Source: Ignavibacteriales bacterium (GTDB lineage Bacteria > Bacteroidota > Ignavibacteria > Ignavibacteriales > Melioribacteraceae). Taken from it: DNA of 64,000 bases. Numbering within the stretch: the first letter of the stretch is position 1; every line of letters starts with the position of its first letter. The stretch covers positions 1-64,000 of the forward strand of contig JAIOYW010000004.1 in assembly GCA_021740915.1 (NCBI GenBank), written 5' to 3'. The notes beneath the pieces are model-generated. The model worked only from the letters and a program-made list of their open reading frames with translations. It did not search any database and was not told the origin of the DNA. Positions 4,419 to 64,000 of this stretch are shown here, in pieces. Made by a program: the position numbers and the translations under genes.

Positions 4419-5639
4419 TTATTTTAGATGGATAACTCTTACTGCGCCAATACTCCCATCTATTGCCGTTCCGACAACAGTGTATATTCCCGAAGCAAAT
4501 TTACCAAAGTCATATTTAAAATTATTTTCTCCTGGACCAATATCGTTTTTATTGATTCTATCTACAAGTTGCCCTTGCATATCATAAATTTCAAAGGTCA
4601 CTTTTCCAAATCTATTGTTTTTATAAGGAATATTTACGAAACCATTTCCGGGATTTGGATATGGATTTCCTACTTCAAAATTCTTAACAGATTTTTCTAA
4701 ACTATTTTCTTCAACAACACTTGTCGGGGAATTAGGATCCTCTGTCAACATATAAGGTTCGACAGCATTAATTCCTGAAACTTGTCCATCCTCCAAAGAA
4801 AAATCAATTAGAATTATATCTGTAAAAAACCCATTTGCATATCCCCACCATTTAATCTTAACATCTTCATTAGCATTCATAGAAAAGTCTCCTGGGTGAA
4901 CTTCTTCATCTGTTTGAGGTTCAAAAAAATACCAATGGTCAAAATTTGTAGGGTCTGCTTGATATTTTGTCGTATCGTTTGGCCCAACCAATACAGCATT
5001 TATTCTATGGCCGGGGGGGTCACTTCCCGGAACTCCAGAAGTAATTTTAGTAAAGCCTCTCTGAACAGGGATATTAAATCTTGCATTCCGAGGATTTACA
5101 AACTTTCCATAATGAAGATAATTTTCAACATTTTCTGCACCATGAGAATTAACGAAGAATTCTTTTGCAAACCAACCGCAGTCATATTCTCCTGAAATAT
5201 AGGGGTTAGTATCTGTTTGATCTATTTCAATCATTTTTTTAGCCCAATCTCTTTTTTCAATTCCATTCAAATGATTCCAATGACTTGGCAATCCATCTCT
5301 ATTTCCAAAAACATATTCCCAAAGAATGTTCTGGTCATTTTGTGTTGAAGGAACTCCATCTCCATCAACATCTGCTCTATCATTTTGAATTCCCCCAACC
5401 ATCGCATTATAATCTTCAAAATCAACAAAACCACTGGAATCCGCGTCACCCGAGCCATAATAATCTGTCGGCAACCTTCCTTCTGTAATTTGAATATCCG
5501 GTTGAGAAAACGGGTCAAGAGTAAAAGGGGCAACTTGTCCCTTAAGGTCTTTAGGCATAACTAAGAAATATCCCAAAGCTACCGCTACAGCAGTCCCTTT
5601 AACAGCGCCCCACAACTTATAAGTTTTAGTCTTTTTCAT
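4419..5639 (-). CDS. T9SS-exported dockerin-like protein with papain/transglutaminase-like core, paralogue 1
   Basis: This gene encodes 406 residues. The N-terminus has a basic stretch and hydrophobic segment (about 13-28) that fits a signal peptide. Residues 64-110 contain two calcium-loop motifs, GDADSSGFVDFEDYN and DVDGDGVPSTQND, arranged like a dockerin. The middle domain has DCGWF (Cys154), GHRINAVLVG (His211) and WYFFEPQT (Glu240/Gln242). That order and spacing is seen in papain-fold and transglutaminase-like cysteine enzymes; the function is not established. Residues about 322-406, starting GNPYPNPGNG, are a T9SS type A sorting domain. It is a near-duplicate of the gene at 5931-7145: the first ~100 residues and the sorting domain are almost identical, while the middle domain has diverged. 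Confidence 0.85.
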   Translation of the reverse strand: MKKTKTYKLWGAVKGTAVAVALGYFLVMPKDLKGQVAPFTLDPFSQPDIQITEGRLPTDYYGSGDADSSGFVDFEDYNAMVGGIQNDRADVDGDGVPSTQNDQNILWEYVFGNRDGLPSHWNHLNGIEKRDWAKKMIEIDQTDTNPYISGEYDCGWFAKEFFVNSHGAENVENYLHYGKFVNPRNARFNIPVQRGFTKITSGVPGSDPPGHRINAVLVGPNDTTKYQADPTNFDHWYFFEPQTDEEVHPGDFSMNANEDVKIKWWGYANGFFTDIILIDFSLEDGQVSGINAVEPYMLTEDPNSPTSVVEENSLEKSVKNFEVGNPYPNPGNGFVNIPYKNNRFGKVTFEIYDMQGQLVDRINKNDIGPGENNFKYDFGKFASGIYTVVGTAIDGSIGAVRVIHLK

Positions 5640-5925
5640 TCTGGTTTTACTACCTAAGGGTTATTTAAAAAACTTTCTTAATTACAAATAAGAAAATTCA
5701 TAAGAAAGAAGCAAATTTAAGAGACATTTTCGAAGGGACAGATAACTGATTTTACCGGCTCTGCAACAAAGCTCGCCTATTGTTAAAGCCGTCGATAAGC
5801 ACTAAGAGGAAATCCGGGAATTATTAATTTTATTTAAAGCTGCAGAACGAAAAACACTACCTTGAATTTCAGAATTGACTTTTATACTACTGTTTTTAGA
5901 TACTCCCGTGCCAAAAGCAGGCGTT
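5640..5925. repeat. Duplicated upstream segment of the dockerin-like paralogues, copy 1
   Basis: This spacer between the two paralogues is repeated beyond the second gene. Its gene-proximal part matches 7146-7253, and its distal part, starting at gagacattttcgaagg, matches 7646-7835. It shows that gene plus leader was duplicated as a unit of about 1.5 kb. It probably holds the promoter. Confidence 0.85.
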
Positions 5926-5930
5926 TCAAT

Positions 5931-7145
5931 TTATTTTAGATGGATAACTCTTACTGCGCCAATACTTCCATCTATTGTCGTTCCGACAACATTGTATATT
6001 CCCGAAGCAAATTTACCAAAGTCATATTTGAAATAATTCTCTCCCGCCACAATATCGTTTTTGCTGATTCTATCTACAAGTTGCCCTTGCATATCATAAA
6101 TTTCAAAGGTCACTTTTCCAAATCTATTGTTTTTATAAGGAATATTTACGAAACCATTTCCGGGATTTGGATACGGATTTCCTATTTTAAAACTCTTGAC
6201 AGATTTTTCTAAACTATTTTCTTCAACAATACTCGTCGGGGAATTAGGGTCGTGTGTGAGCATCCAAGGATGAACCCAATAATTATTTGGATTTCCATCT
6301 TCAAGCAAAAATTCTACAAGGTTTAAATTTGTAGAAACTCCTGACGGAATTCCCCACCATTGAATTTTAACCTTTTCATTAGCATTCATACTCCAGTCTC
6401 CCGGATGAACCTCTCCATCTGTTTGAGGTTCAAAGAAAAACCAATGGTCAAAGTTTGTAGGGTTCGCCTGATATTTTGTTGTATCATTTGGTCCAACCAA
6501 AACTCCATTTATTGCATGTGCTCCTGGAAGGTTTGGAGGCAAAGGAGTGGTTCTTGTTACAACTTCCATAACAGGAATATTAAATCTAGCATTTCTAGGG
6601 TTCACAAATTTATTATAATGAAGATAATTTTCAATGTCTTCTGCACCATGAAAATTAACATAAGTCTCTCTTGTGAACCAACCACAATCATAAACTCCGG
6701 GAATACCTAAATTACTATCTGTTGGGTCTCTTTTAATCATTTTATTTACCCAATCTCTTTTTTCAATTCCATTCGAATGATTCCAATGACCTGGCAAAAT
6801 ATCTCTGTTCCCCCCAATATAATCCAAAAGAATATTCCGGTCATTTTGTGTTGAAGGAACTCCGTCTCCATCAACATCTGATCTGTCATTTTGAATCCCC
6901 CCAACCATCGCGTTATAATCTTCAAAATCAACAAAACCACTGGAATCCGCGTCACCCGAGCCATAATAATCTGTCGGCAACCTTCCTTCTGTAATCTGAA
7001 TATCTGGTTGAGAAAACGGGTCAAGAGTAAAAGGGACAACTTGTCCCTTAAGGTCTTTAGGCATAACTAAGAAATATCCCAAAGCTATCGCTACAGCAGT
7101 CCCTTTAACAGCGCCCCACAACTTATAAGTTTTAGTCTTTTTCAT
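5931..7145 (-). CDS. T9SS-exported dockerin-like protein with papain/transglutaminase-like core, paralogue 2
   Basis: This 404-residue protein has the same architecture as the downstream neighbour: signal-like N-terminus, dockerin-like double calcium loop (64-110), middle domain and T9SS type A sorting domain (about 320-404). The putative catalytic positions are kept: Cys154 in DCGWF, His210 in AHAINGVLVG and Glu239 in FFFEPQT. The region between Cys and His and the stretch before the sorting domain differ most, so the two may recognise different substrates or partners. DNA identity is highest in the leader and 5' third, consistent with recent duplication or gene conversion. Confidence 0.85.
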   Translation of the reverse strand: MKKTKTYKLWGAVKGTAVAIALGYFLVMPKDLKGQVVPFTLDPFSQPDIQITEGRLPTDYYGSGDADSSGFVDFEDYNAMVGGIQNDRSDVDGDGVPSTQNDRNILLDYIGGNRDILPGHWNHSNGIEKRDWVNKMIKRDPTDSNLGIPGVYDCGWFTRETYVNFHGAEDIENYLHYNKFVNPRNARFNIPVMEVVTRTTPLPPNLPGAHAINGVLVGPNDTTKYQANPTNFDHWFFFEPQTDGEVHPGDWSMNANEKVKIQWWGIPSGVSTNLNLVEFLLEDGNPNNYWVHPWMLTHDPNSPTSIVEENSLEKSVKSFKIGNPYPNPGNGFVNIPYKNNRFGKVTFEIYDMQGQLVDRISKNDIVAGENYFKYDFGKFASGIYNVVGTTIDGSIGAVRVIHLK

Positions 7146-7253: not shown

Positions 7254-7362
7254 CCTGACTTGTACCCTTTAGTGCGGTAAAATTAAATATTTATATTCGT
7301 AAGTACATGATTTTACAACAGTTGCTTTATGGTTATTTTCAAATGGTACAAGCCGGGAGAGA
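7254..7362. repeat. 109-bp direct repeat, left copy
   Basis: The block containing agtgcggtaaaattaaat and ending near acaagccgggaga recurs at 7541-7649 with about 80% identity. The two copies flank a palindromic element, so the whole 7254-7645 stretch looks like an insertion into the duplicated leader. Confidence 0.75.
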
Positions 7363-7540
7363 ATCCCATTAATCATTTGCCCCGCATCGCGGGGCGAACT
7401 GACAAAGAAAGATAAAACAAACAAACGGCTTTAGCCACATTGCAGGCTGGTAATTGGGCTAAAGCCCGGAGATTATTCGGGCAGCTTTTTTTGCCGTCCG
7501 CTGAAGCAGACGGCAAAAATGAAGAAATAATTTGATCAAA
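7363..7540. repeat. Palindromic REP/MITE-like element
   Basis: Nested inverted repeats: gccccgcatcgcggggc, ggctttagcc pairing with gggctaaagcc, and ttgccgtccgctgaagcagacggcaa. The gggctaaagccc and tgaagt themes recur in degenerate form at 13405-13545. It has no coding capacity. Interpreted as a non-autonomous, hairpin-forming dispersed repeat. Confidence 0.6.
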
Positions 7541-7835
7541 CTTCTGACATATACCTTTTAGTGCGGTAAAATTAAATATTTATATTCGTAAGTAGTTGGT
7601 TTTACAATAGTTAATTTTTGGTTGTATTCAAAAGGTACAAGTCGGGAGACATTTTCGAAGGGACAGATAACTGATTTAACCGGCTCCGCAATTAAGCTCA
7701 CCTATTGTTAAAGCCGTCGATAAGCACTAAGAGGAAATCCGGAGATTATTAATTTTATTTAAAGCTGCAGAACGAAAAACACTACCTTGAATTTCAGAAT
7801 TGACTTTTATACTACTGTTTTTACATTCTCCCGCG
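7541..7835. repeat. Right 109-bp repeat copy plus orphan leader remnant
   Basis: 7541-7649 is the right copy of the 109-bp repeat. 7646-7835 repeats the distal part of the dockerin-protein leader (compare 5727-5925) but has no gene attached. It is the far end of the original upstream region, displaced by the insertion, or a relic of a third paralogue. Confidence 0.75.
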
Positions 7836-7918
7836 CCAAAGGTAAGCCGCCAATTATTAATTTATTAGTTTATCAACTTTCCAACTTTCCAACTTTCCAA
7901 CTTTATAACTTTATAACT

Positions 7919-23829: not shown

Positions 23830-24735
23830 TTATTCAAAATTCAAAGATTTGTTATCTGCTTTCAATCTTTCGAGGTCAGACAGATTACTATCCGGACTAT
23901 TCAGCAATGCCGCAATATTATCTAAAAGCCGAATTTCGGAATTTGTCAGATCATTAAGGCTGTTCTCAATTCCGGTCACTATTTCAGGATCTTTCCAATA
24001 TGGCTCTTCGGCTCTGAGAATATAAGACAAATCGAGCCAGACAAGGTGCGCCGTAGCCTGATCCACAGTCTTATATCGCGAGATGTAATATCTCTTGTTA
24101 ATGTCTCCATCTCTTAATTTTTGCCAGGTTTCGCCTGCAAATTCGAATTCATTCCGGCTGAAATCAATTCTGTTCCGGTCCGGATCAACCAGATACCACT
24201 TATTGCGATTTTTATCCCAGACTTCACAGATCACATGTGTAACCCGGATCCTCTTATCTCCGCCTATATATTTTGCATTTCCTGCGCGGAGCCTTACAGG
24301 TATGCCTTTATACCGGAGAATTGATGCGAGCAGCATACTATGATGGACACAGGCAACAACTAATCTTTCTTCCGGTTTTCGTGATACGTTAAGACCACTA
24401 TTATTGCGGTTAAGAAGCGCATTAAGCATTTCTTCTACTGTCTGAAGCGATTCGTCTTCATTCATCCGATTTACGGGGATCTTATCCCCGAATTTTTCAA
24501 TATCAAATGGATGAATCAGTTGGCTTTTTATCAGACTGCAAATATCCTCCACAGACTCAGGTAAATCCTTATAAAGATAACCAAACCCGCCGGGATCAGT
24601 ATATTTACTGAATGTTGCATATCTGTGAAGGAATTCTTCGGAATGAATAAAATCAGGTGCTTCCTCAGAACATGATACTGAGATCATTTGTAGCAGGAGG
24701 AGAAGTAATGCCATATTTCTATTGCAAATTTTCAT
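23830..24735 (-). CDS. Transglutaminase-like lipoprotein
   Basis: This gene encodes 301 residues with a lipoprotein signal ending in SVSC (Cys22). The core matches the transglutaminase/protease superfamily: Cys129 in VVACVHHSMLLASILRYKG, His167 in RVTHVICEVWD and Asp184 in WYLVDPDRN give the expected Cys-His-Asp triad and spacing. Such periplasmic or surface enzymes act on peptides or cross-link or cleave proteins; the substrate is unknown. The gene starts 110 bp downstream of an integral membrane protein gene on the same strand and may be co-transcribed with it. Confidence 0.85.
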   Translation of the reverse strand: MKICNRNMALLLLLLQMISVSCSEEAPDFIHSEEFLHRYATFSKYTDPGGFGYLYKDLPESVEDICSLIKSQLIHPFDIEKFGDKIPVNRMNEDESLQTVEEMLNALLNRNNSGLNVSRKPEERLVVACVHHSMLLASILRYKGIPVRLRAGNAKYIGGDKRIRVTHVICEVWDKNRNKWYLVDPDRNRIDFSRNEFEFAGETWQKLRDGDINKRYYISRYKTVDQATAHLVWLDLSYILRAEEPYWKDPEIVTGIENSLNDLTNSEIRLLDNIAALLNSPDSNLSDLERLKADNKSLNFE

Positions 24736-53057: not shown

Positions 53058-56000
53058 TTATCTTAGAAGTATCATCTTTTTAACACTCGAGTATTTTTTG
53101 CCTGTCGATAACCCTTCGGCGCTGAATGAGTATATATACATACCCGATGCAGCTTCATTGGCATTCCAGATAATACTATAATAACCCTGCTCCATCACTT
53201 CATTCACAAGTGTCCCGACAATTTGACCAAGAGCATTATAAATTGTCAGGCGCACCCTTGACTGTTCGGGTAATGAGAATTTAACCGTTGTAGCGGGATT
53301 AAAAGGATTGGGATAATTCTGTGCAAGGCTGAATTCCTTAGGAGTAAAATCAACATCTACTTCAATGATATTCAGGTACTCATAAGTCCCGTCATAATTG
53401 ATCTGTCTGAGACGGTAGGAAACAATACCCTTATAAGAAAAGTCGGAGAAATTATCACGGTATGAGTATTCGCTCTGCCGGGTGGTTGAACCCATTCCTT
53501 CGATAAATATGAGTTTTTCCCAATTACCGTTTGTCTTCCTTTCGAGATCGAAGCCTTTGTTGTTGGTCTCCGTTGCAGTTGACCATGCAATGTTAATATT
53601 AAAGCCCTCAACGGAACCGTTAAATGACACAAGTTCAACCGGGATTGGTATTTCGACGATTGCCTGATTACTGTATGCTGAGACAGTATCAGCATTGTAA
53701 GCCTGCAGACGATAAGTGTAAAAAGACGACGGAGCAACTGTAGTGTCGGTATAATGTATTGTATTTGCAGCAACCGAATCAATAATGATATAAGGAGCAA
53801 CAAACAAAGAATCTCCGTCCTTTCTTTCAATAATAAAACCGGATTCATTTGAAGAATTGTCAATCCATTGTAATTCTACATCACCGGGTTGAGTAGCAAC
53901 TGCAAAAAGATCTGATGGGGCAGCGATAGGTTCATAGCTTATGTTTAATATTCCGGAAACATTGCTGTTGCCATTCCAGAATCCACCGCCATCGGTGCTG
54001 TATCCACCATAAACATATTCACTGTTATTCAATCTGAATCTGCTGGCATAAAACCATGTGCCGTTCGGAATATCTGAACCAAGTGAAGCAGTATATTCAT
54101 CCTGATCTGAAAAGTCAGCATCATAAGCCGCAATAATCCAGTTATTCCATCCCGAGGGGTTTGTGTTCGAACTATTGTAACCAACCCAGACTTCAATCCC
54201 GGCACCCTGTCCCTGCCCGGTTGTTATTCCATTGGCAAAAACGCGGGCTTTTACATCAATAGAATTCCCCGTATAAATAGAAGCATTCCCGGGAGACTGC
54301 AAATTGGCGAAGCCTATTGTCTCAAGAGTTGTGAAATTACGAGGATCAGTCCATTCAGACTCACCCCCTGTGTTGATTACTTTTACTCTCCAGTAGTAAG
54401 TTTGATTTCCTGATAAACCGGCGACCGTATAAAGAGTGTCCTGAACCAGAACATCAGTAAATATATTTTGGAATTGATTATCGGTTGCTACCATAAGGCG
54501 ATAATCAATTGCGCGAAGAGCTTCTCCCCAAACAAGTTCGGGATTAACAGATACCCCCGTTGCGCCATCTGACGGAGATATAAGATAAGTTGATCCCGGA
54601 GGTAAACTGTTTACGGAGCCGTTATCATAATTAACTGAAAGCGGTTGTCCCAGGATATCAGCTATTTCTGATTGGTCCGGATCAAATGTCAGTGCTGAAT
54701 AACCTGATACATACTGGAATTTGAGTTCTGTGAGAACCCCCATTCCTAAACTGGCTCCATTAATATCGTCCCAGGCTATAACAAGTTTTCCATTTACGGC
54801 ATTTGCAAGAGCGCCATCAAAAGCCGGATCCCAGTTTAGCGCCCTTCCCCATTTAAGAACTGTGGGGTCAAAATTAATTGTAAGTGTTATTGCGCCTACA
54901 TTAAACATATTCGAAACATTCAGAGGGAAAACAATACTATCGCCAAATTCCGCCGTTTTATCTTCAAGACTAAATAAAGGTGGTAAAACTTCGCCAATTG
55001 TGAATGCTGCATCGCTCTGATCTGATATTGACGGATTAGTGCTTGAACTGACCTTTATAAATGCATCCGGGGTCTGAGTATCAGGAACCAGCCATGAATA
55101 TGAATAGAGCATCGTGGATGATTGAATTCCGTTTCCGCCTTTAGTTTTCTTCGATTTAGAGACCCCGGAATTCACATTTCTTGAATTAGATTTTGCAGGA
55201 TCATAATCCCCGACAACTTCAATCCATGTGCCGCCGCCATCGGTCGAATAGTCAATATCGAACACAGAAATGCCTTCTGCACTCCATTCAACTGACTGCA
55301 TTGTATTTGCATTCCAGATTTCACCGCCATTAGGTGCAGTGATAGCTACCGATGCTCCGGGTGTGATCTGGAACGGGGCATCACTCACATCAGAAATCGT
55401 TGGCGATTCCTCCGCTGTAAGTTTAATGAGCGCTTCCGATGTCTGAATTGAAGGCACTGTCCATAAGTAAGTTCCGCTTAAAGGAGAGACTCCCATTGCA
55501 ATAGAGTTCCATGAATCGCCGGCATCGGATGAATACTCAATTTTAATTGATTGAATCCCGTTACTCAGCCATTTGATCTCTTCACTAGTGTTTCCGCCGA
55601 AAATTTCTCCGCCGTTCGGTCTAAGAACAACAAGATATTCTTCAAGTTCTGTGGAAACTGAACCATTTACATACATCGGCTCGAGTACGCTTACATTAAC
55701 ATCTACGATTTCTGACATATCCTCATTGAAATCCAGAACCGTTGTTCCGCCAGCATAGTCGAAATGAAGATCGACGAGAAGTCCTGCTAAGAGGGAAGCG
55801 CCATTGACATCGTCCCAGGCTAAAGTTACTTTACCATCCCCGCCGTTGGCAAGAGCACCATCAAAAAGCGGGTTCCAGTTTTCTGCTGATACCCAATCCA
55901 AAACGTCTTCATTATAATTAATAACGATTGTGAATGCACCAATATTGTTGAAATTATCAACTGTTATAGGAACAGTAACGTTTTCGCCGGGATTCGCAAT

Positions 56001-59000
56001 GACTTCAGCAGCTGTTACAGTTAATTCCAAAGTCGCAACAATGGAAAATACAGCATCACTGGTGTCATTTATCTGCGGATCATCTGCAGAAACAATCCTG
56101 ACCAGCGCCTGATCTGTATTCATAGCCGTGACCGTCCAGTTATAAGATTGATCTATTGCTGGCACTCCCTGTGCTATATTCACCCATTCGCTGCCGTTAT
56201 TTGTGCTTAACTGAATATCGACAGAATCAACTCCAATGCTGCTCCATGTAATCTGTTCCATCGTATTTCCAACAAATAATTCCCCGCCGTTCGGACGTGT
56301 GACCATAATTTCCGGCTGGATAGTAATTGTGAAAACAGATTCACTAACCGAAGTGATTGAGGGATTTTGGGAATCGGTAAGCCTGATCAGGTTTTCGCTG
56401 CCGGAGATCAATGGCACAGTCCACTCATATGAGTTATTTGAGGCAGTTACTGAATTGGCAATTGGTGACCATGAATCTCCATTATCAGTACTCAGTTCAA
56501 TGTTGAGGGTTGTAACCTGTCCGGATATCCATTGAATATTCACGAGAGAACCTGCAAAAAGTGTTTCCCCGCCATCAGGATAAATTATATTTACATACTG
56601 ACTGACTGATGAACTGACTTCCCCATCAATCAGATTAAGCTCATAAACTTCTCCGAGCTCATTTGCAATTTCAGTAGCAGTCTCATTCAGATCAACTGCA
56701 GCGGTCCCGCCATAATAATCGAACACTCCGTCAAACATGAGAGAATTCTCAAGCGATACTGATTCAACGGCATCCCATGCAAGTGTAAGAACACCATTGA
56801 CATCGTTAATGAGTGCACCGTCCAGGAGTGGATTGATGTTCTGAGCTTCAACAAACAGTAGTTTTGAGGTATCGTAATTAATTACCAGAGTTACCGCACC
56901 TACCTCATTAAAATTCTCTACAGAAATAGGAACTATTACCTGAGTTCCGGGAACTCCGCTGACATTACCAGCAATCACAGTATGAATGAGTTGTTCATTA
57001 ATTACAAAAGTTTCGCTCACATGATAATTTAAAGCACTATTCCCTGTCTCTGAGACACGCACCTTGCCCTGAACAGTAGGAGTATTGGGCACAGTCCAGT
57101 TGTAGGATGCAGGAGAAGCCGGAACAGAAGCAGCGACTGAAATCCAGCTGTTACCGAGATCTGTCGAATAATCAATATTAATATTCGCAACCCCGAGCTG
57201 TTTCCATTTAATCTGGAAAATGTCATCAGGATATAAAGTATCTGCCGATGTCGGAGCCAGAACAAGAACATATGGTAATGTTATTGTAAAATCTGATTCA
57301 CTTTCATCGGTTGTTGAGGGATTATCGACATCAGTCAGCCGGACTCTTGCTGCACTTGTTACAATCTGTGGTAATGACCATGAATATGATCCGCCCGCAG
57401 CCGGAGTACTTTCGATGACTGTCTGCCAGCTTTGCCCGGAATTTGTCGAGTACTCAATCTTGATATTTGTTACTCCGCCGCTTTGCCATAAAATGTCCTG
57501 CATCGAACCGGATAACCATTCCTCACCACCATTTGGAGTCGTAAGAGATATGGCACCTGATGCTGTAATCGTAAATGAATTATCCGAGATATCAAAGTAA
57601 TTGCCGTTATCGGAATTCCTTACTCTTATTCTGGCATTTTGCGTTAGAACCTGCGGTACAAGCCATTCTCTCGAATTGGCTTTATCAGTTGGGAAAATGA
57701 TATTGATCCAGTCGGCGCCCCCGTTTGTCGAATAATCAAATTCTACAGGGAATACACCAAAATTTTCCCAGCTTAAGGTATAGACAGAACCCGACTGTAA
57801 AACTTCCCCGCCATTGGGAGCAAGCAAAAGTAACGGGTAAGGATTTATCGTCGAATTTTCAAAAGTGACAAGCAGAGGGTTGCCAAGTATATCAGTGATT
57901 TCCGAATTTTGCGTATTAAAAGTTATCAACCGGGAACCGTCAGCAGGTGTTCCGGTAAATATGAATTTCAGTTCAACAAAAGTGCCGGGAGGCATTGTGG
58001 CACCTGCAAGGTCGTCCCAGGCTATTGTAACTGTACCACCCTGACCATTTATCAACACTCCGCTGAAATTCTCATCCAGATTTTCATACCCTGAAAATTC
58101 GAAAAGCTCAGCATCATAATTAATATTTAGAGTAAGCGCTCCGGCACCTATCAGGTTATCAGCGAGAAGCGGCACGTTTATCGTATCGCCCGGTTTAACG
58201 TCTTCAAGCGAAGAGAGAGTCAACCCAATGGGTTCAATTGTAAAAGGTCCGTACTCTTCGGAAATATCATGAGCTGGAGAATTGCTGATCCTTAACAGAG
58301 CATTATCTGTGATCATACTCTCTTCAACTACAAAATCATAACTCGAATCTGTGGAAGCCTGGACGAGATAACTCCACCCGTTTTCCTGAGTAAATAGTTC
58401 CAGATCGAAGGAGCTTATCCCGAAGGAAGTCCACTTTATTTCGTTTGTGGAACCCGGTACCAGAGTTGAGAAGTTGACGACCGGATCAAAATTAACGTAG
58501 GGTTCGGCAATGGAAAAATTAGCTGCGCTAATATCTTTTACGTCAGGGTTTGAAGAATCGGTGATCCTGACTAAAGCGGATGCCGTTGGTGTGTTCGGAA
58601 CCGTCCACTGATATGTGCCCGTTCCTGCCGGCAATGATTGGGCAACGCTGATCCAGTTCATTCCATTATCAGTCGAGTAATCCAGATCAACATTTTCCAC
58701 ACTCACGCTGTTCCAGGTGACAGGGTGAACTGACCCAACAGCCCAGACTTCTCCTCCGTTCGGTGAAATCAGACTTATTGCTGAAGCCGCTGCTATTGTA
58801 AAATCGGCGTCGCTTTCATCGTAAATCTGAGTATCTGATGAGGATGAGATTTTAATTAATGCCTGATCAGTAAGCGTATTAGGTATTGTCCATGAATAAC
58901 CGAAATTTGTGGTCTGAAATGCATCTTCTATCGTTGTCCAGTTACTTCCTGAATTTGTTGAGTATTCAATCTTAAATGATGTAAGATTATAGGCTTCCCA

Positions 59001-60764
59001 TGTAATTGTCTGAGAAGTTCCGACCTGCCATATTTCCCCGCCATCCGGTGCTGTCACCAGGAGTGGGAATGGAGTGAAAGCGGCATCAGCAAAATCAGCT
59101 GTAAGTGGATTTCCCGATATGTCTGTGATATCAGTAAGCTGCTGATCAAAAGCTAATGCGGCTTCTCCAGTAGCTGGAGTACCGAGATATTTGAAATTAA
59201 AATCGGCAATTTTGCCGGCTGCAATCGAAGTGCCGCTGAGCGCATCCCAGGATACAGTAAGTACTCCGTTTACTGCGTTTATTGTTGCACCGGGCAAAGA
59301 CTGGTTCAGGTTTGTATAAGAAATATAATTATAAACCTGAGGATCAAAATTGATTTTTATCGTGATTGCACCAACACCGAGCAAATTTTCCACATTGAGT
59401 GAGGAAGTAATATCGGCATCGGGTAGAATACTGTCCCCACCGGTAAGGCTGAGATGTATATAGTCAATAACAAAAGCCTCATCGCTCGTATCGGATAACT
59501 GCTGATCCGCTGCATCGGTAATTTTAATAAAAGCATTTTCAGATAAGGCATCCGGAACCATCCAGGTGTATGATCCGGAACCCGCATTCAGCCCTGCTGC
59601 TATCGCCGTAAAAGACTGCCCTCCGTCCGTTGAATAATCAATATCAACTGTGCTTATTCCAACGGAATTCCATGTGATTTCATAAGCAGAACCAACGACA
59701 AGAACTTCTCCGCCATTTGGGTTCAGAACCGTGACAGAGGGCGGAATGATACTGAAAACAGATTCACTCACATCGCCGGTATTTGCATTCGACTGATCGC
59801 TTACCCTGACGAGAGCCTGATCAGTCGCAGGTGAAGTAACTGTCCACTGATATGTGCCTGATGAAGCGCTTACGTCCTGCGCAATTGTTGACCAGTTCTG
59901 TCCATTATTAGTAGAATACTCGATGAGGACATTATCAATAAGCGAACTCGACCAGGTGATATTCTGCTGAGACCCGATCAGCCACTCTTCGCCGCCGTTC
60001 GGTGCAGTAAGATTAATAGTAGGCGATTCAGTTATTGTAAACACAGCATCACTTAGATCAAGATACTGACTATTAGCAGAATTTATAACTCCAATCAGGT
60101 TCTGCTGAGATACAGTCTCAGGCACCAGCCATGAATAACTCCCGGAGGCTGTAGAAAGATTTTGTACCACAGGAATCCATGTCGCACCATTATCAGTACT
60201 ATGTCCGATATCAATGTTTGATATCTGATAAACCTCAAAAGTTATATCTTTTGTGGAACCTGCCTGCCATACTTCTCCCCCGTTTGGCGAAGTCAGAAGG
60301 ATTGGATAAGGATCGATAAAACCATCGGTATAATCTGTCTGCAGCGGATCGCCAAGTTCATCACTTACAATGCTCGAAGCATCAAAGGCAAGTTCAGTCC
60401 TTCCGTCGCCGGCAGTTCCGGTGTATTTTAGTTTAAGATCAAGGAGTTGTGCATCACCAAGGTTTATTGCTTCAAGACCTAACCAGTCCATAATAATCTG
60501 ACCCTGGTTGATGGTAACGACCAGATCCTGAGCGACTGCAGGATTAATATTTAATGCTCTGCCGCCTTCAACCTCTGTTGCGTCAAAATTCAGTTTCAAA
60601 GTGAAACTTGCAACCCCGTTGAAACTTCCCAAATCAATCGGGATTATTACACTGTCACCCGGTGATGCGTCTGCGGCATTTCCGGCAGTAACTGTAATCT
60701 GCGCAGTTACTGCGGAAAATCCGGTTAACAGTAAAATCATTAAAACTTTTATTAAACTTTTCAT
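53058..60764 (-). CDS. Giant T9SS surface protein with six cohesin-like and thirteen Ig-like modules
   Basis: This gene encodes 2,568 residues. I start at the ATG at 60764, which gives the signal peptide MKSLIKVLMILLLTGFSAVT; three earlier ATG codons add only 4-10 residues. Cohesin-like modules lie at about 22-150, 437-572, 847-983, 1260-1385, 1579-1705 and 1930-2052 (pattern PGDxVxxPI, GAxTLxINFD, then NGxLxxAWDD). Between them are Ig-like modules opening with PNGGE, in groups of 3, 3, 3, 2 and 2. The C-terminal part has an Fn3-like domain, a beta-rich domain, two more Fn3-like modules (about 2280-2470) and a T9SS sorting domain with NYPNPFNP (about 2480-2568). It has the layout of a scaffoldin, though no cellulose-binding module is visible. 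Confidence 0.9.
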   Translation of the reverse strand: MKSLIKVLMILLLTGFSAVTAQITVTAGNAADASPGDSVIIPIDLGSFNGVASFTLKLNFDATEVEGGRALNINPAVAQDLVVTINQGQIIMDWLGLEAINLGDAQLLDLKLKYTGTAGDGRTELAFDASSIVSDELGDPLQTDYTDGFIDPYPILLTSPNGGEVWQAGSTKDITFEVYQISNIDIGHSTDNGATWIPVVQNLSTASGSYSWLVPETVSQQNLIGVINSANSQYLDLSDAVFTITESPTINLTAPNGGEEWLIGSQQNITWSSSLIDNVLIEYSTNNGQNWSTIAQDVSASSGTYQWTVTSPATDQALVRVSDQSNANTGDVSESVFSIIPPSVTVLNPNGGEVLVVGSAYEITWNSVGISTVDIDYSTDGGQSFTAIAAGLNAGSGSYTWMVPDALSENAFIKITDAADQQLSDTSDEAFVIDYIHLSLTGGDSILPDADITSSLNVENLLGVGAITIKINFDPQVYNYISYTNLNQSLPGATINAVNGVLTVSWDALSGTSIAAGKIADFNFKYLGTPATGEAALAFDQQLTDITDISGNPLTADFADAAFTPFPLLVTAPDGGEIWQVGTSQTITWEAYNLTSFKIEYSTNSGSNWTTIEDAFQTTNFGYSWTIPNTLTDQALIKISSSSDTQIYDESDADFTIAAASAISLISPNGGEVWAVGSVHPVTWNSVSVENVDLDYSTDNGMNWISVAQSLPAGTGTYQWTVPNTPTASALVRITDSSNPDVKDISAANFSIAEPYVNFDPVVNFSTLVPGSTNEIKWTSFGISSFDLELFTQENGWSYLVQASTDSSYDFVVEESMITDNALLRISNSPAHDISEEYGPFTIEPIGLTLSSLEDVKPGDTINVPLLADNLIGAGALTLNINYDAELFEFSGYENLDENFSGVLINGQGGTVTIAWDDLAGATMPPGTFVELKFIFTGTPADGSRLITFNTQNSEITDILGNPLLVTFENSTINPYPLLLLAPNGGEVLQSGSVYTLSWENFGVFPVEFDYSTNGGADWINIIFPTDKANSREWLVPQVLTQNARIRVRNSDNGNYFDISDNSFTITASGAISLTTPNGGEEWLSGSMQDILWQSGGVTNIKIEYSTNSGQSWQTVIESTPAAGGSYSWSLPQIVTSAARVRLTDVDNPSTTDESESDFTITLPYVLVLAPTSADTLYPDDIFQIKWKQLGVANINIDYSTDLGNSWISVAASVPASPASYNWTVPNTPTVQGKVRVSETGNSALNYHVSETFVINEQLIHTVIAGNVSGVPGTQVIVPISVENFNEVGAVTLVINYDTSKLLFVEAQNINPLLDGALINDVNGVLTLAWDAVESVSLENSLMFDGVFDYYGGTAAVDLNETATEIANELGEVYELNLIDGEVSSSVSQYVNIIYPDGGETLFAGSLVNIQWISGQVTTLNIELSTDNGDSWSPIANSVTASNNSYEWTVPLISGSENLIRLTDSQNPSITSVSESVFTITIQPEIMVTRPNGGELFVGNTMEQITWSSIGVDSVDIQLSTNNGSEWVNIAQGVPAIDQSYNWTVTAMNTDQALVRIVSADDPQINDTSDAVFSIVATLELTVTAAEVIANPGENVTVPITVDNFNNIGAFTIVINYNEDVLDWVSAENWNPLFDGALANGGDGKVTLAWDDVNGASLLAGLLVDLHFDYAGGTTVLDFNEDMSEIVDVNVSVLEPMYVNGSVSTELEEYLVVLRPNGGEIFGGNTSEEIKWLSNGIQSIKIEYSSDAGDSWNSIAMGVSPLSGTYLWTVPSIQTSEALIKLTAEESPTISDVSDAPFQITPGASVAITAPNGGEIWNANTMQSVEWSAEGISVFDIDYSTDGGGTWIEVVGDYDPAKSNSRNVNSGVSKSKKTKGGNGIQSSTMLYSYSWLVPDTQTPDAFIKVSSSTNPSISDQSDAAFTIGEVLPPLFSLEDKTAEFGDSIVFPLNVSNMFNVGAITLTINFDPTVLKWGRALNWDPAFDGALANAVNGKLVIAWDDINGASLGMGVLTELKFQYVSGYSALTFDPDQSEIADILGQPLSVNYDNGSVNSLPPGSTYLISPSDGATGVSVNPELVWGEALRAIDYRLMVATDNQFQNIFTDVLVQDTLYTVAGLSGNQTYYWRVKVINTGGESEWTDPRNFTTLETIGFANLQSPGNASIYTGNSIDVKARVFANGITTGQGQGAGIEVWVGYNSSNTNPSGWNNWIIAAYDADFSDQDEYTASLGSDIPNGTWFYASRFRLNNSEYVYGGYSTDGGGFWNGNSNVSGILNISYEPIAAPSDLFAVATQPGDVELQWIDNSSNESGFIIERKDGDSLFVAPYIIIDSVAANTIHYTDTTVAPSSFYTYRLQAYNADTVSAYSNQAIVEIPIPVELVSFNGSVEGFNINIAWSTATETNNKGFDLERKTNGNWEKLIFIEGMGSTTRQSEYSYRDNFSDFSYKGIVSYRLRQINYDGTYEYLNIIEVDVDFTPKEFSLAQNYPNPFNPATTVKFSLPEQSRVRLTIYNALGQIVGTLVNEVMEQGYYSIIWNANEAASGMYIYSFSAEGLSTGKKYSSVKKMILLR

Positions 60765-60798
60765 ACTCATATCCATATTATTTGCAGTAAACACAATG

Positions 60799-61557
60799 CT
60801 ATTTCAGTAATAATACTTTATGGATCGATAATGATCCGCTCTCCTGTTCAAAGGGTATTGCACGGACCATGATAAAGTATTGACCGCTCGGATAAGCCGA
60901 GAAATCAAGATTTTTGCTAAATCTCCCTTTTATTGCTTCAAATCTGCCGGGCGAATTATTCATTAACTGTCCGGTCAGATCAAATATTTTAACTTCCATT
61001 TTCGTTTCAGAATCCGATTCAATAGAAAGTGCGCTTGAGGAGTTGAAGGGATTCGGGTAAACGGAAGATCGGAAAACCCGAGAATTGTCCTGTGAATTTT
61101 CCACGGAACTGATAGCGGGACTGATTAGTCCGTCTAAGTAAGTTATACTTTTAGGGTTACCCACTGTGTCGGTGATTTCCGAAAAATCCTGATCAAAAGA
61201 GATCAGTGAACTGATTCCTGTAAATTCAAAGGTGAAACTAATTATTTCTTCATCTGATATTGTCACTCCGGCAATATTCTCCCACGACAAATAAATACTG
61301 CCCGAAATACTATTGATAAGCGTCGATGAAAAATCCGCATTTAGAATCTGTGAGGATATAAAACGCAGCGAAAGAGTATCAAAATCAATTTTTAGAGTAA
61401 TCGCTCCGGCAGCATTCAAAGATGAGTAAAGTACTACTGTCAGGTTTTCACCCTGTGCCGCTTCGGCGTCATTTATCCGCATAAATTCCTGCCCGTAGGA
61501 GCCGGGAAAATTTGCAAATGCAAGCGCCAACATCAGTATGAGAATTTCATTTTTCAA
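60799..61557 (-). CDS. Small T9SS protein with a single cohesin-like module
   Basis: This gene encodes 252 residues with a signal peptide (about 1-22). Residues about 26-148 form one cohesin-like module: AAQGENLTVVLYSSL, GAITLKIDFDTLSL, then GSIYLSWENIAG. A T9SS type A sorting domain with YPNPFNSSSALS occupies about 165-252. It lies 34 bp upstream of the giant gene and 51 bp downstream of the truncated neighbour, all on one strand, so the three probably form an operon. Confidence 0.88.
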   Translation of the reverse strand: MKNEILILMLALAFANFPGSYGQEFMRINDAEAAQGENLTVVLYSSLNAAGAITLKIDFDTLSLRFISSQILNADFSSTLINSISGSIYLSWENIAGVTISDEEIISFTFEFTGISSLISFDQDFSEITDTVGNPKSITYLDGLISPAISSVENSQDNSRVFRSSVYPNPFNSSSALSIESDSETKMEVKIFDLTGQLMNNSPGRFEAIKGRFSKNLDFSAYPSGQYFIMVRAIPFEQESGSLSIHKVLLLK

Positions 61558-61570
61558 TATTCTTTTAGTT

Positions 61571-61595
61571 ATGCGGGAGGTTATACCTCCCGCAT
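61571..61595 (-). terminator. GC-rich hairpin between cohesin genes
   Basis: atgcgggaggt and acctcccgcat form an 11-bp stem with a 3-nt loop. There is no T-run, so it may attenuate transcription or set mRNA ends within the operon. Confidence 0.55.
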
Positions 61596-61608
61596 ATATT
61601 AATTGAAA

Positions 61609-64000
61609 TTATTTCATCAGCATCATTTTAAGGGTTCTTGTAAATGATGAACCCGGTGAAACTGCGTTTAGTCTGTAAACATATATACCTGATGCAAGAT
61701 TTCCTGCCTCAAAAGTGACTTCGTATGAACCCGCTTTCTGGCTTTGATTAACGATTGTTGCAACTTTCTCACCGACAATGCTGTAAACTTCGAGAGTTAC
61801 TGAGCTGTTATTCGGCAGATCGTAAGTTATCGTTGTAGAAGGATTGAACGGGTTTGGATAATTCTGTTTAAGTGAGAAATCGGTAGGTCTGAATATCTCA
61901 ACGGAATTGGTCGATAATTGCAGATCGATAGATTTGGCAAGGACATCTGCAAATTCATTTTCGGCCGAAGTCTGGAAATCGAAAATTGTACCAGCATCAG
62001 CATTTTCTGATACCTTAAATACGAGCGAGAATAAAGTCTCTCCCGCTTTTACCTGAAGAGGCTGCAAATCGTCCCATGCTATGCTGATCAAACCTTCATT
62101 TTCATTGAAAACTAAACCGCTGCCGGCAAATCTGATAGATTTGAAACTCAGATTATCAGAATCATATTTAATTCCGGCAGTTATTGCAGCTATGTCGGCA
62201 TTATAGTTAACTGATACTGGCAATTCAAAGGTTTCGCCCGGTTTTACGTACTGTTTTGTTCCGGCGCTTAAAGCCAGAAACTCGGTTGATTTTGCTATCG
62301 GAATATTTGAATATGATGCATTGACATCACCTACAGTCAATCCGAGCAAGTTTTGTGTGGCATTTTGTCCTGCAACTGTAACATCGGGTTTTGTAAATTT
62401 CCAGTCACCGGCGGCGAAGCCTGGATCGAGACCGACAGTCCTTCTTCTGATAAGCAGCGCATCGGTAGAATTAACAGAGTTACTTCCATTAACATCTGCT
62501 ACAACAAGTCTCAACCCTTCGAGAAGAGTCAAACCTACTGTGTGCCTGCGTACAAGCAATGCGTCAGTTGAATTGACACCACCCCATGCTTTTGTCGTTG
62601 TCGAGCTGATAGTATAGGTTCCGTTCTCAACCTGATCAATCTGATATGCTCCATCTGAACCGGTAAGATCAGTCCCAATGCTTTGACCGCCGAGCATCAG
62701 ACTGACAGATACATTAGAAAGAGCCGTATTTGCAGTATTATCATACTGAACAAGTCCGCTCACTGAATATGTCGAGGGTAAGATTGAAAAATAAGCATCA
62801 CTTACGTCGTAAGTCATAGGATTGGAAGCATCCGATATTTTTATCAAAGCTGACGTGGTGGGTGTATTCGGCACTGCCCACTGATAAGAACCTGTTGAAG
62901 CATTCAGCCCGGTTGCAATGGTCTCGAAATTATTTCCGCCGTCAGTCGAGTAAGCAAGATCAACCTGGGCAATGTTAAATGTGAGCCATTCGATTAGGAA
63001 ATCGGAAGAAGCAAATATGTTCTCACCGCCATTTGGAGTGGTAACAGTAACCGGTGCTACACTTACATTTCCGTTTTCGTAAAATACTGTTATCAGATTA
63101 CCTTCAGGATCGCTGACTTCGCATCCCGCAACATTGAAGTCTATCCCTGATTCTCCGCCAATATATGTGAATTTGATATCAAATAACTTTCCGTCCGGAA
63201 CATTTATTCCGGTAAAAGTATTGTCAACCCATGAAAAGTTTACAAATCCATTAGAAGCATTTGCAAGAGCGCCGGTGATCTGAGGATTGTAATTCGTCAA
63301 TGCCTGATATGTAAGAACTGCGGGATCGTATGCAATCTTAAAAGTGATTGCACCAACATTGTTAAAATTCATTGCAGTAACAGGAACATAAACTGTATGC
63401 CCGGGAGCTGCCTGAACCGTTCCTGCTTTTACCAGAACAGGTGTAACAACATGAATTGTAGATGTAACTTCATCAAAGAGGTCACCATCTGATACTTTGA
63501 CTGTAAAGGTGAAATCGCCTGTGTTTTGGGGAGTCCACTCAAAAAATCCGGCAGGGCTTAATGTCGCGCCATCCGGCAGATCAGCGGATGAGAATATCAG
63601 ATCATCATTTTCAGGATCTTCTGCATCATACGGATACGGGAAATACATACCAACAGGAATCGTGGTTTCCGAGATGTATTGAGTAAAATAAGGAGCTGTA
63701 TTTCCAAGTGTTGTCACCGTAGCGACATTACTGTAATCCGACTCAAGTTCGGTATTAAAAGCTTTGACCCGGTAATTATAAGTTGTAAATTGTGCAACTG
63801 AGTTATCCGTATAGGATGTTTCATTCTCACCTAAAGTAGCAATTACTGTGAATGTCTTTTCAGTGCCCTCTTCGCGTTCCACTGTAAATCCGGTTTCATT
63901 CGAAGAATTATCTGCCCAGGTTAGTGCAACTGAACCTATACCAAGATTTTCTGCACTCAAATCAGAAGGAGCATTGATTCCCGGAGCTTCGGTAGAATAA
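61609..64000 (-). CDS. T9SS surface protein with Fn3, cohesin-like, Ig-like and dockerin-like modules (5'-truncated by window)
   Basis: The frame is open at the window edge, so the N-terminus is missing; about 797 residues are visible. From the N-terminal side: an Fn3 module (APSDLSAENLG to about 64-90 residues on), a cadherin/He_PIG-like module (AEDPENDDLIFSSADLPDG), a cohesin-like module (APGHTVYVPVTAMNFNNVG), a PNGGE Ig-like module, a carboxypeptidase-regulatory-like sandwich, then a dockerin-like segment with GGVNSTDALLVRRHTVG and DVNGSNSVNSTDALLIRRR (about 62430-62590). A second cohesin-like module and a T9SS sorting domain (NYPNPFNPSTTITYDL) end the protein. The presence of both dockerin- and cohesin-like parts is unusual. 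Confidence 0.88.
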   Translation of the reverse strand, partial: YSTEAPGINAPSDLSAENLGIGSVALTWADNSSNETGFTVEREEGTEKTFTVIATLGENETSYTDNSVAQFTTYNYRVKAFNTELESDYSNVATVTTLGNTAPYFTQYISETTIPVGMYFPYPYDAEDPENDDLIFSSADLPDGATLSPAGFFEWTPQNTGDFTFTVKVSDGDLFDEVTSTIHVVTPVLVKAGTVQAAPGHTVYVPVTAMNFNNVGAITFKIAYDPAVLTYQALTNYNPQITGALANASNGFVNFSWVDNTFTGINVPDGKLFDIKFTYIGGESGIDFNVAGCEVSDPEGNLITVFYENGNVSVAPVTVTTPNGGENIFASSDFLIEWLTFNIAQVDLAYSTDGGNNFETIATGLNASTGSYQWAVPNTPTTSALIKISDASNPMTYDVSDAYFSILPSTYSVSGLVQYDNTANTALSNVSVSLMLGGQSIGTDLTGSDGAYQIDQVENGTYTISSTTTKAWGGVNSTDALLVRRHTVGLTLLEGLRLVVADVNGSNSVNSTDALLIRRRTVGLDPGFAAGDWKFTKPDVTVAGQNATQNLLGLTVGDVNASYSNIPIAKSTEFLALSAGTKQYVKPGETFELPVSVNYNADIAAITAGIKYDSDNLSFKSIRFAGSGLVFNENEGLISIAWDDLQPLQVKAGETLFSLVFKVSENADAGTIFDFQTSAENEFADVLAKSIDLQLSTNSVEIFRPTDFSLKQNYPNPFNPSTTITYDLPNNSSVTLEVYSIVGEKVATIVNQSQKAGSYEVTFEAGNLASGIYVYRLNAVSPGSSFTRTLKMMLMK

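Follow-up and report, generated by a model that had tools for sequence, protein, structure and literature searches.

Proteins that combine an enzyme with a dockerin have been described before, and for papain-like and transglutaminase-like domains the precedents come from Ruminococcus flavefaciens (PMC2930009, PMC5301203, PMC3573020). In strain FD-1, five tandem dockerin proteins (group 4b, ORF01263-01267) are called "transglutaminase-like" in the text of the report, and one of them appears in its table as LRR-Doc (PMC2930009). As described there, these proteins resemble the pair reported here in being secreted, head-to-tail paralogues that join a thiol-enzyme-like domain to a dockerin, in having one conserved and one variable part, and possibly in a lengthened calcium loop. 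They differ in that their dockerin is C-terminal and belongs to a Gram-positive cellulosome, and no T9SS tail is described for them; the likeness is one of published description. A second described protein, RflaF_05439 (PDB 4EZY), is a papain-like (NlpC/P60) X-dockerin protein in which, by the published account, a Cys-His-polar module is joined to a dockerin and one related copy deviates from the conserved Cys (PMC3573020). There, however, the dockerin is terminal and accompanied by an X module, and the third residue is Gln. This too is a likeness by description, and the profile of our middle-domain family matched no PDB chain at E 10. The kind of protein that we describe is therefore ordinary, but its arrangement is unusual.

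The two genes lie in tandem in an Ignavibacteriales genome. By "the window" we mean the whole 64,000-nt stretch that was analysed (JAIOYW010000004.1, positions 1 to 64,000), and coordinates count from its first letter. The relevant features are as follows.

4419..5639, minus strand: paralogue A, an ORF of 406 aa with a signal-like N-terminus, a double calcium-loop segment, a Cys-His-Glu middle domain and a T9SS type A tail
4710..5294, minus strand: middle domain of A, residues 116-310, with Cys154, His211 and Glu240 (family alignment, AlphaFold2)
5279..5471, minus strand: double calcium-loop (dockerin-like) segment of A, about residues 57-120, nested between DYYGSG and WN motifs (sequence reading, family profile)
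5721..5915, minus strand: 195-bp repeat upstream of copy A (self-BLAST)
5931..7145, minus strand: paralogue B, an ORF of 404 aa with the same architecture as A
6222..6800, minus strand: middle domain of B, residues 116-308 (alignment with A)
7646..7840, minus strand: 195-bp repeat upstream of copy B (self-BLAST)

A and B are 80% identical. By eye, both start with an export-signal-like N-terminus, followed by a PF-x-QP...DYYGSGD stretch ahead of the double loop, and both carry the motifs DCGWF (Cys154), HRINAVLVG or HAINGVLVG (His211 in A) and FFEPQT (Glu240). The first-pass annotation had read the pair as a double loop, a motif-bearing middle domain and a T9SS sorting domain, and this three-part architecture stands, with both ORFs and the motifs in place. 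The C-terminal sorting tail is the sole part of either protein that scores above a Pfam cut-off: PF18962 reached 41.7 bits in A and 40.6 bits in B (cut-off, 27), and TIGR04183 reached 31.4 bits on the tail of A (cut-off, 23). These values exceed the curated cut-offs for C-terminal sorting domains, which places the proteins in the T9SS type A group and confirms the sorting domain that had been claimed. A search of the whole genome with A returned 93 places, namely the two copies and matches mostly restricted to sorting tails; at the sensitivity of this search, the double-loop segment was found in no further protein of the genome.

Nine homologues elsewhere retain the middle domain, which is rare and patchily distributed. 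A scan of 84,980 species genomes, restricted to two peptide patterns, confirmed five loci among 46 pattern matches: L014, whose record is titled uncultured archaeon; L015, from Bacteroidales; L016 (genome G042), from Ignavibacteriales, the same order as the window genome; L017, from Planctomycetales; and L018, from a Porphyromonadaceae genome that also holds a second copy, L035. Of 79 genomes in the family to which the window belongs, 5 matched at E <= 0.001 (its own, G580, G719, G668 and G023, the last with a truncated copy). Samples of genomes gave matches in 2 of 395 for the phylum (its own and G023) and in 1 of 314 for the phylum of L017 (that of L017 itself). Smaller queries matched 2 of 58 genomes (the window's own and G042), 2 of 395 (its own and one chance match) and 6 of 391 (its own, three real and two by chance). 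Three candidates were dropped as chance matches: L012, which lies in a YidC-like frame (E 0.0016), and L023 and L024 (E 0.0016 and 0.0054), the genome of L023 (G638) giving no match with a larger profile. Phage and plasmid collections yielded no family match, and none of 12 pattern matches in viral contigs was confirmed.

We note that the member titled as archaeal (L014:633-1994, CAIKWG010000003.1; see also L053) has a T9SS-type tail and lies near a contig end. The contig carries archaeal genes, including an archaeal proteasome beta-like gene, aCPSF1 and an archaeal CCA transferase-like gene. The gene itself aligns at 82.7% identity with L035 (808 bp) and at 74.5% identity with L018 (769 bp), both in the Porphyromonadaceae genome. 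A recent transfer between domains, or a contig end that is chimeric, would explain this.

Loop 1 of A reads by eye as D65-x-D67-x-S69-G-F-x-D73-x-x-D76, a canonical EF/dockerin loop. Loop 2 begins D90-x-D92-x-D94 and is one residue over the usual length, with the extra residue before the last Asp. Judged by the dockerin pattern of acidic or polar residues at positions 1, 3, 5, 9 and 12, loop 1 of A fits and loop 2 is lengthened; in L015, loop 1 is degenerate. As in type I dockerins (PF00404), there are two EF-like loops, and a helix follows each of them in the model of A (residues 74-82 and 100-110). Pfam Dockerin_1 (PF00404) matched neither A nor B even at E 10. Its cut-off of 22.9 bits was exceeded over the double-loop segment by the homologues L014 (24.9 bits) and L035 (28.0 bits), and with a limit of E 5 the family matched four of ten members (best E 1.2e-4). 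A seven-member family profile matched solved dockerins over the loop stretch (2y3n_B, E 1.6e-4; the CelS dockerin 2mte_A, E 6.2e-4) and, over the same stretch, a chain named 'Serine protease' (8x3a_A, E 3.4e-7). A plain search with the double-loop segment of A returned mostly EF-hand proteins, weakly, the best being a calcium indicator (E 7.6e-4). Judged from these profile matches, the double loop is dockerin-related, in keeping with what the first-pass annotation had proposed. L017 and L021 lack the segment yet retain the motifs on either side of it (DYYG- or DFYN-like, and W), and for this reason the double loop looks like a dockerin-derived, optional insert nested in the putative enzyme module. 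It is in this internal and optional placement, in the longer loop 2 and in the missing PF00404 match that A and B depart from type I dockerins.

The middle domain was aligned in 11 rows (A, B, L014-L018, L020, L021, L028 and L035), with the truncated L022 left out. Over this domain, identity to A is 26-53% for members apart from B. Of the 11 rows, 10 retain Cys154, all 11 His211 and 10 Glu240; the exception is L021, which has no Cys and carries Asp in place of Glu. L022, truncated before the His, is also without the Cys. The residues are spaced by 57 (Cys to His) and 29 (His to Glu) positions in A and by 55 and 21 in the Planctomycetales member. Because identity between the paralogues alone is little proof, the motifs gain weight from their recurrence in homologues from other genomes, and the order of Cys, His and acidic residue on which the first-pass annotation had remarked is preserved across them. 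Apart from L021 and L022, the family thus shows the conserved Cys, His and acidic or polar residue of papain-like and transglutaminase-like enzymes. The alignment contains a single conserved Cys, so there is no conserved disulfide within the domain.

The same order of residues is seen in the transglutaminase-like superfamily (PF01841), whose known members have a spacing that resembles that of A and B. However, Pfam gave no match between this superfamily and the middle domain. The window encodes a separate Transglut_core protein (PF01841, E 2.4e-5) at 23830-24735 on the minus strand, and a profile comparison of the middle domain with it detected no relation (probability, 0.2%). More broadly, no family in Pfam or NCBIfam covers the middle domain, which agrees with the earlier suggestion that the family may be undescribed. 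Sequence profiles gave no credible match to peptidase or transglutaminase families in Pfam, NCBIfam, PHROGs or PDB sequences; weak matches of the family consensus in Pfam (best E 0.023) and in PHROGs (best E 0.023; one endolysin at E 0.15) were taken as chance. Literature searches on Ignavibacteria with cohesin or dockerin, and on transglutaminase-like proteins with dockerin, T9SS or peptidase, returned no title or abstract describing this family.

An AlphaFold2 model of A was built from seven rows and reached a mean pLDDT of 50.4, with middle-domain blocks at about 40-70 up to residue 255 and below 40 beyond. At this low to moderate confidence, a helix (residues 154-166) begins at Cys154 and is followed by strands at 192-198, at 210-217, which carries His211, and at 236-239, with Glu240 directly after it. 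The papain-like core, as outlined in the relevant part of PMC10318531, has the Cys at the N-terminus of a helix, the His on strand 2 and a polar residue on strand 3. The order of elements in the A model agrees with this core, at a local pLDDT of about 60-70 at best, so that the structure prediction suggested by the first-pass annotation places helix and strands in the right order. Modelling of L017, the Planctomycetales member, gave a poor result (mean pLDDT, 40.7), with a short strand at the Cys and no helix. A fold search with this poor domain model found no solved structure at Z 2 or more. With the whole-protein model of A, the matches listed all spanned only the C-terminal tail, mostly to immunoglobulin-like or fibronectin-like folds; a search of the A model against viral models gave nothing usable. 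Because the confidence of the middle domain was low to moderate, the L017 model was poor and there was no fold match, the papain-like fold is one that we infer. The absence of a fold match is no demonstration of a new fold.

The divergence of the two paralogues is mosaic. Values of dS between A and B are 0 over residues 1-36, 0.13 over 37-60 and 0.26 over 61-115, rise to 0.85 over 116-310, and are 0.15 over 311-406. In rounded counts, synonymous differences fall on 60 of 117 sites for the middle and on 18 of 136 for the flanking parts (Fisher p 5e-11). The middle domain is 67% identical between A and B and is under purifying selection (dN/dS, 0.29), with the lowest value in the domain, 0.09, in the block round the Cys (residues 150-190). 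The contrast in dS would follow if the ends had undergone gene conversion or the middle had been exchanged. The 195-bp upstream repeats (5721-5915 and 7646-7840) are 95% identical, and copy B has about 390 bp of extra sequence (7254-7645) between this repeat and a gene-proximal repeat; the extra sequence is itself flanked by 111-bp repeats of 86% identity. A literature search on gene conversion of tandem paralogs with dockerins found nothing relevant.

Taken together, these data suggest that A and B are T9SS-exported, probably surface-attached thiol enzymes of papain/transglutaminase-like type, with a dockerin-derived insert and belonging to an unnamed family, a reading to which we give a probability of roughly 55%. 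In such an enzyme, the target of Cys154 would be an amide bond in a protein or peptide, with His211 activating the Cys and Glu240 orienting the His. The acyl-enzyme would be resolved by water, as in a peptidase or amidase, which is the likelier course, or by an amine, resulting in cross-linking. The double loop, towards the N-terminus of the enzyme module, may stabilise or gate the enzyme or dock some partner. The export and calcium parts may have stayed alike through a tandem duplication followed by gene conversion of both ends, with the enzyme parts diverging under purifying selection.

A conserved Cys and His could also serve structure or metal binding. The middle domain might be a recognition domain at the cell surface, degenerate or never catalytic, in which both residues are structural; this would fit the absence of the Cys from L021 and L022, the Asp of L021 and the divergence of the domain between the paralogues, and in R. 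flavefaciens 17 a papain-like X-dockerin module is likewise described as departing from the conserved Cys (PMC3573020). We consider it unlikely, however, that the proteins are non-catalytic, since nearly every aligned row retains the Cys and the block round it has the minimum dN/dS of the domain. Given that the domain has no fold or family match and that model confidence is limited, one may also ask whether it is a metal-binding or adhesin-like domain of some other fold, its Cys-His-Glu order being coincidental. The agreement of the predicted helix and strand order with a papain-like core, and the presence of one conserved Cys with no conserved disulfide, speak against such a coincidence, which we hold to be improbable.

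The first-pass annotation had further proposed that the pair are clients of cohesin proteins in the same window. Clustered at 53058-63960 of the window are T9SS-tailed proteins rich in cohesin modules. The protein at 61609-63960 combines a dockerin and two cohesins in one chain, and the other two Dockerin_1 chains of the genome have one or two. As scaffold clients, the enzymes would use a working dockerin to plug into the multi-cohesin proteins 53058-60794 and 61609-63960, forming a T9SS-based cell-surface counterpart of the R. flavefaciens peptidase-dockerin proteins. This idea draws on the cohesins in the window and the 10 cohesin matches in the genome at E <= 0.01, on the dockerin relationship of the double loop, and on the transglutaminase-like and papain-like dockerin proteins described for R. 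flavefaciens (PMC2930009, PMC3573020). Against it stand the lack of any Dockerin_1 match in A and B at E 10, the lengthened loop 2 and the internal rather than terminal position of the segment. Moreover, the residues round the loops differ between A/B and the three Dockerin_1 matches above cut-off in the genome, each of which is in a chain also bearing cohesins. Of the 9 genomes that carry the family, 6 had cohesins (E <= 1e-3), versus 23 of 27 same-family genomes without it, the latter hand-picked, mostly for completeness. Cohesins were not found in the family-bearing G721, G723 and G724, and the match in G719 was below the cohesin family cut-off; in G721 and G724, family members exceed the dockerin cut-off, yet there was no cohesin match. 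Co-occurrence with cohesins was therefore dropped as support, there being no association across genomes, and the comparison of genome content neither favours nor rules against a cohesin partner. Finally, a T9SS type A tail would by itself suffice to anchor the protein. The proposed link to the window's cohesins is thus not borne out, and we regard this R. flavefaciens-like arrangement as improbable; for the thiol enzymes that we favour, a stabilising or gating role of the double loop, or docking to another partner, would be likelier.

Among the secreted proteins of Bacteroidota-like bacteria that are probably thiol enzymes, the pair represents a further family, unnamed and patchy in distribution, in which the dockerin-like unit sits inside the enzyme module instead of at its end. 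A bolder scenario, which we hold to be rather improbable, is that these are calcium-gated surface thiol enzymes in which a dockerin captured inside the module became a calcium switch, that gene conversion keeps the export and calcium parts of tandem copies alike as the catalytic parts diversify, and that the family has moved between Bacteroidota and an archaeon. If calcium does gate activity, dockerin folds can serve beyond docking tags. The mosaic paralogues, for their part, offer a ready-made comparison for finding the part that determines the substrate.
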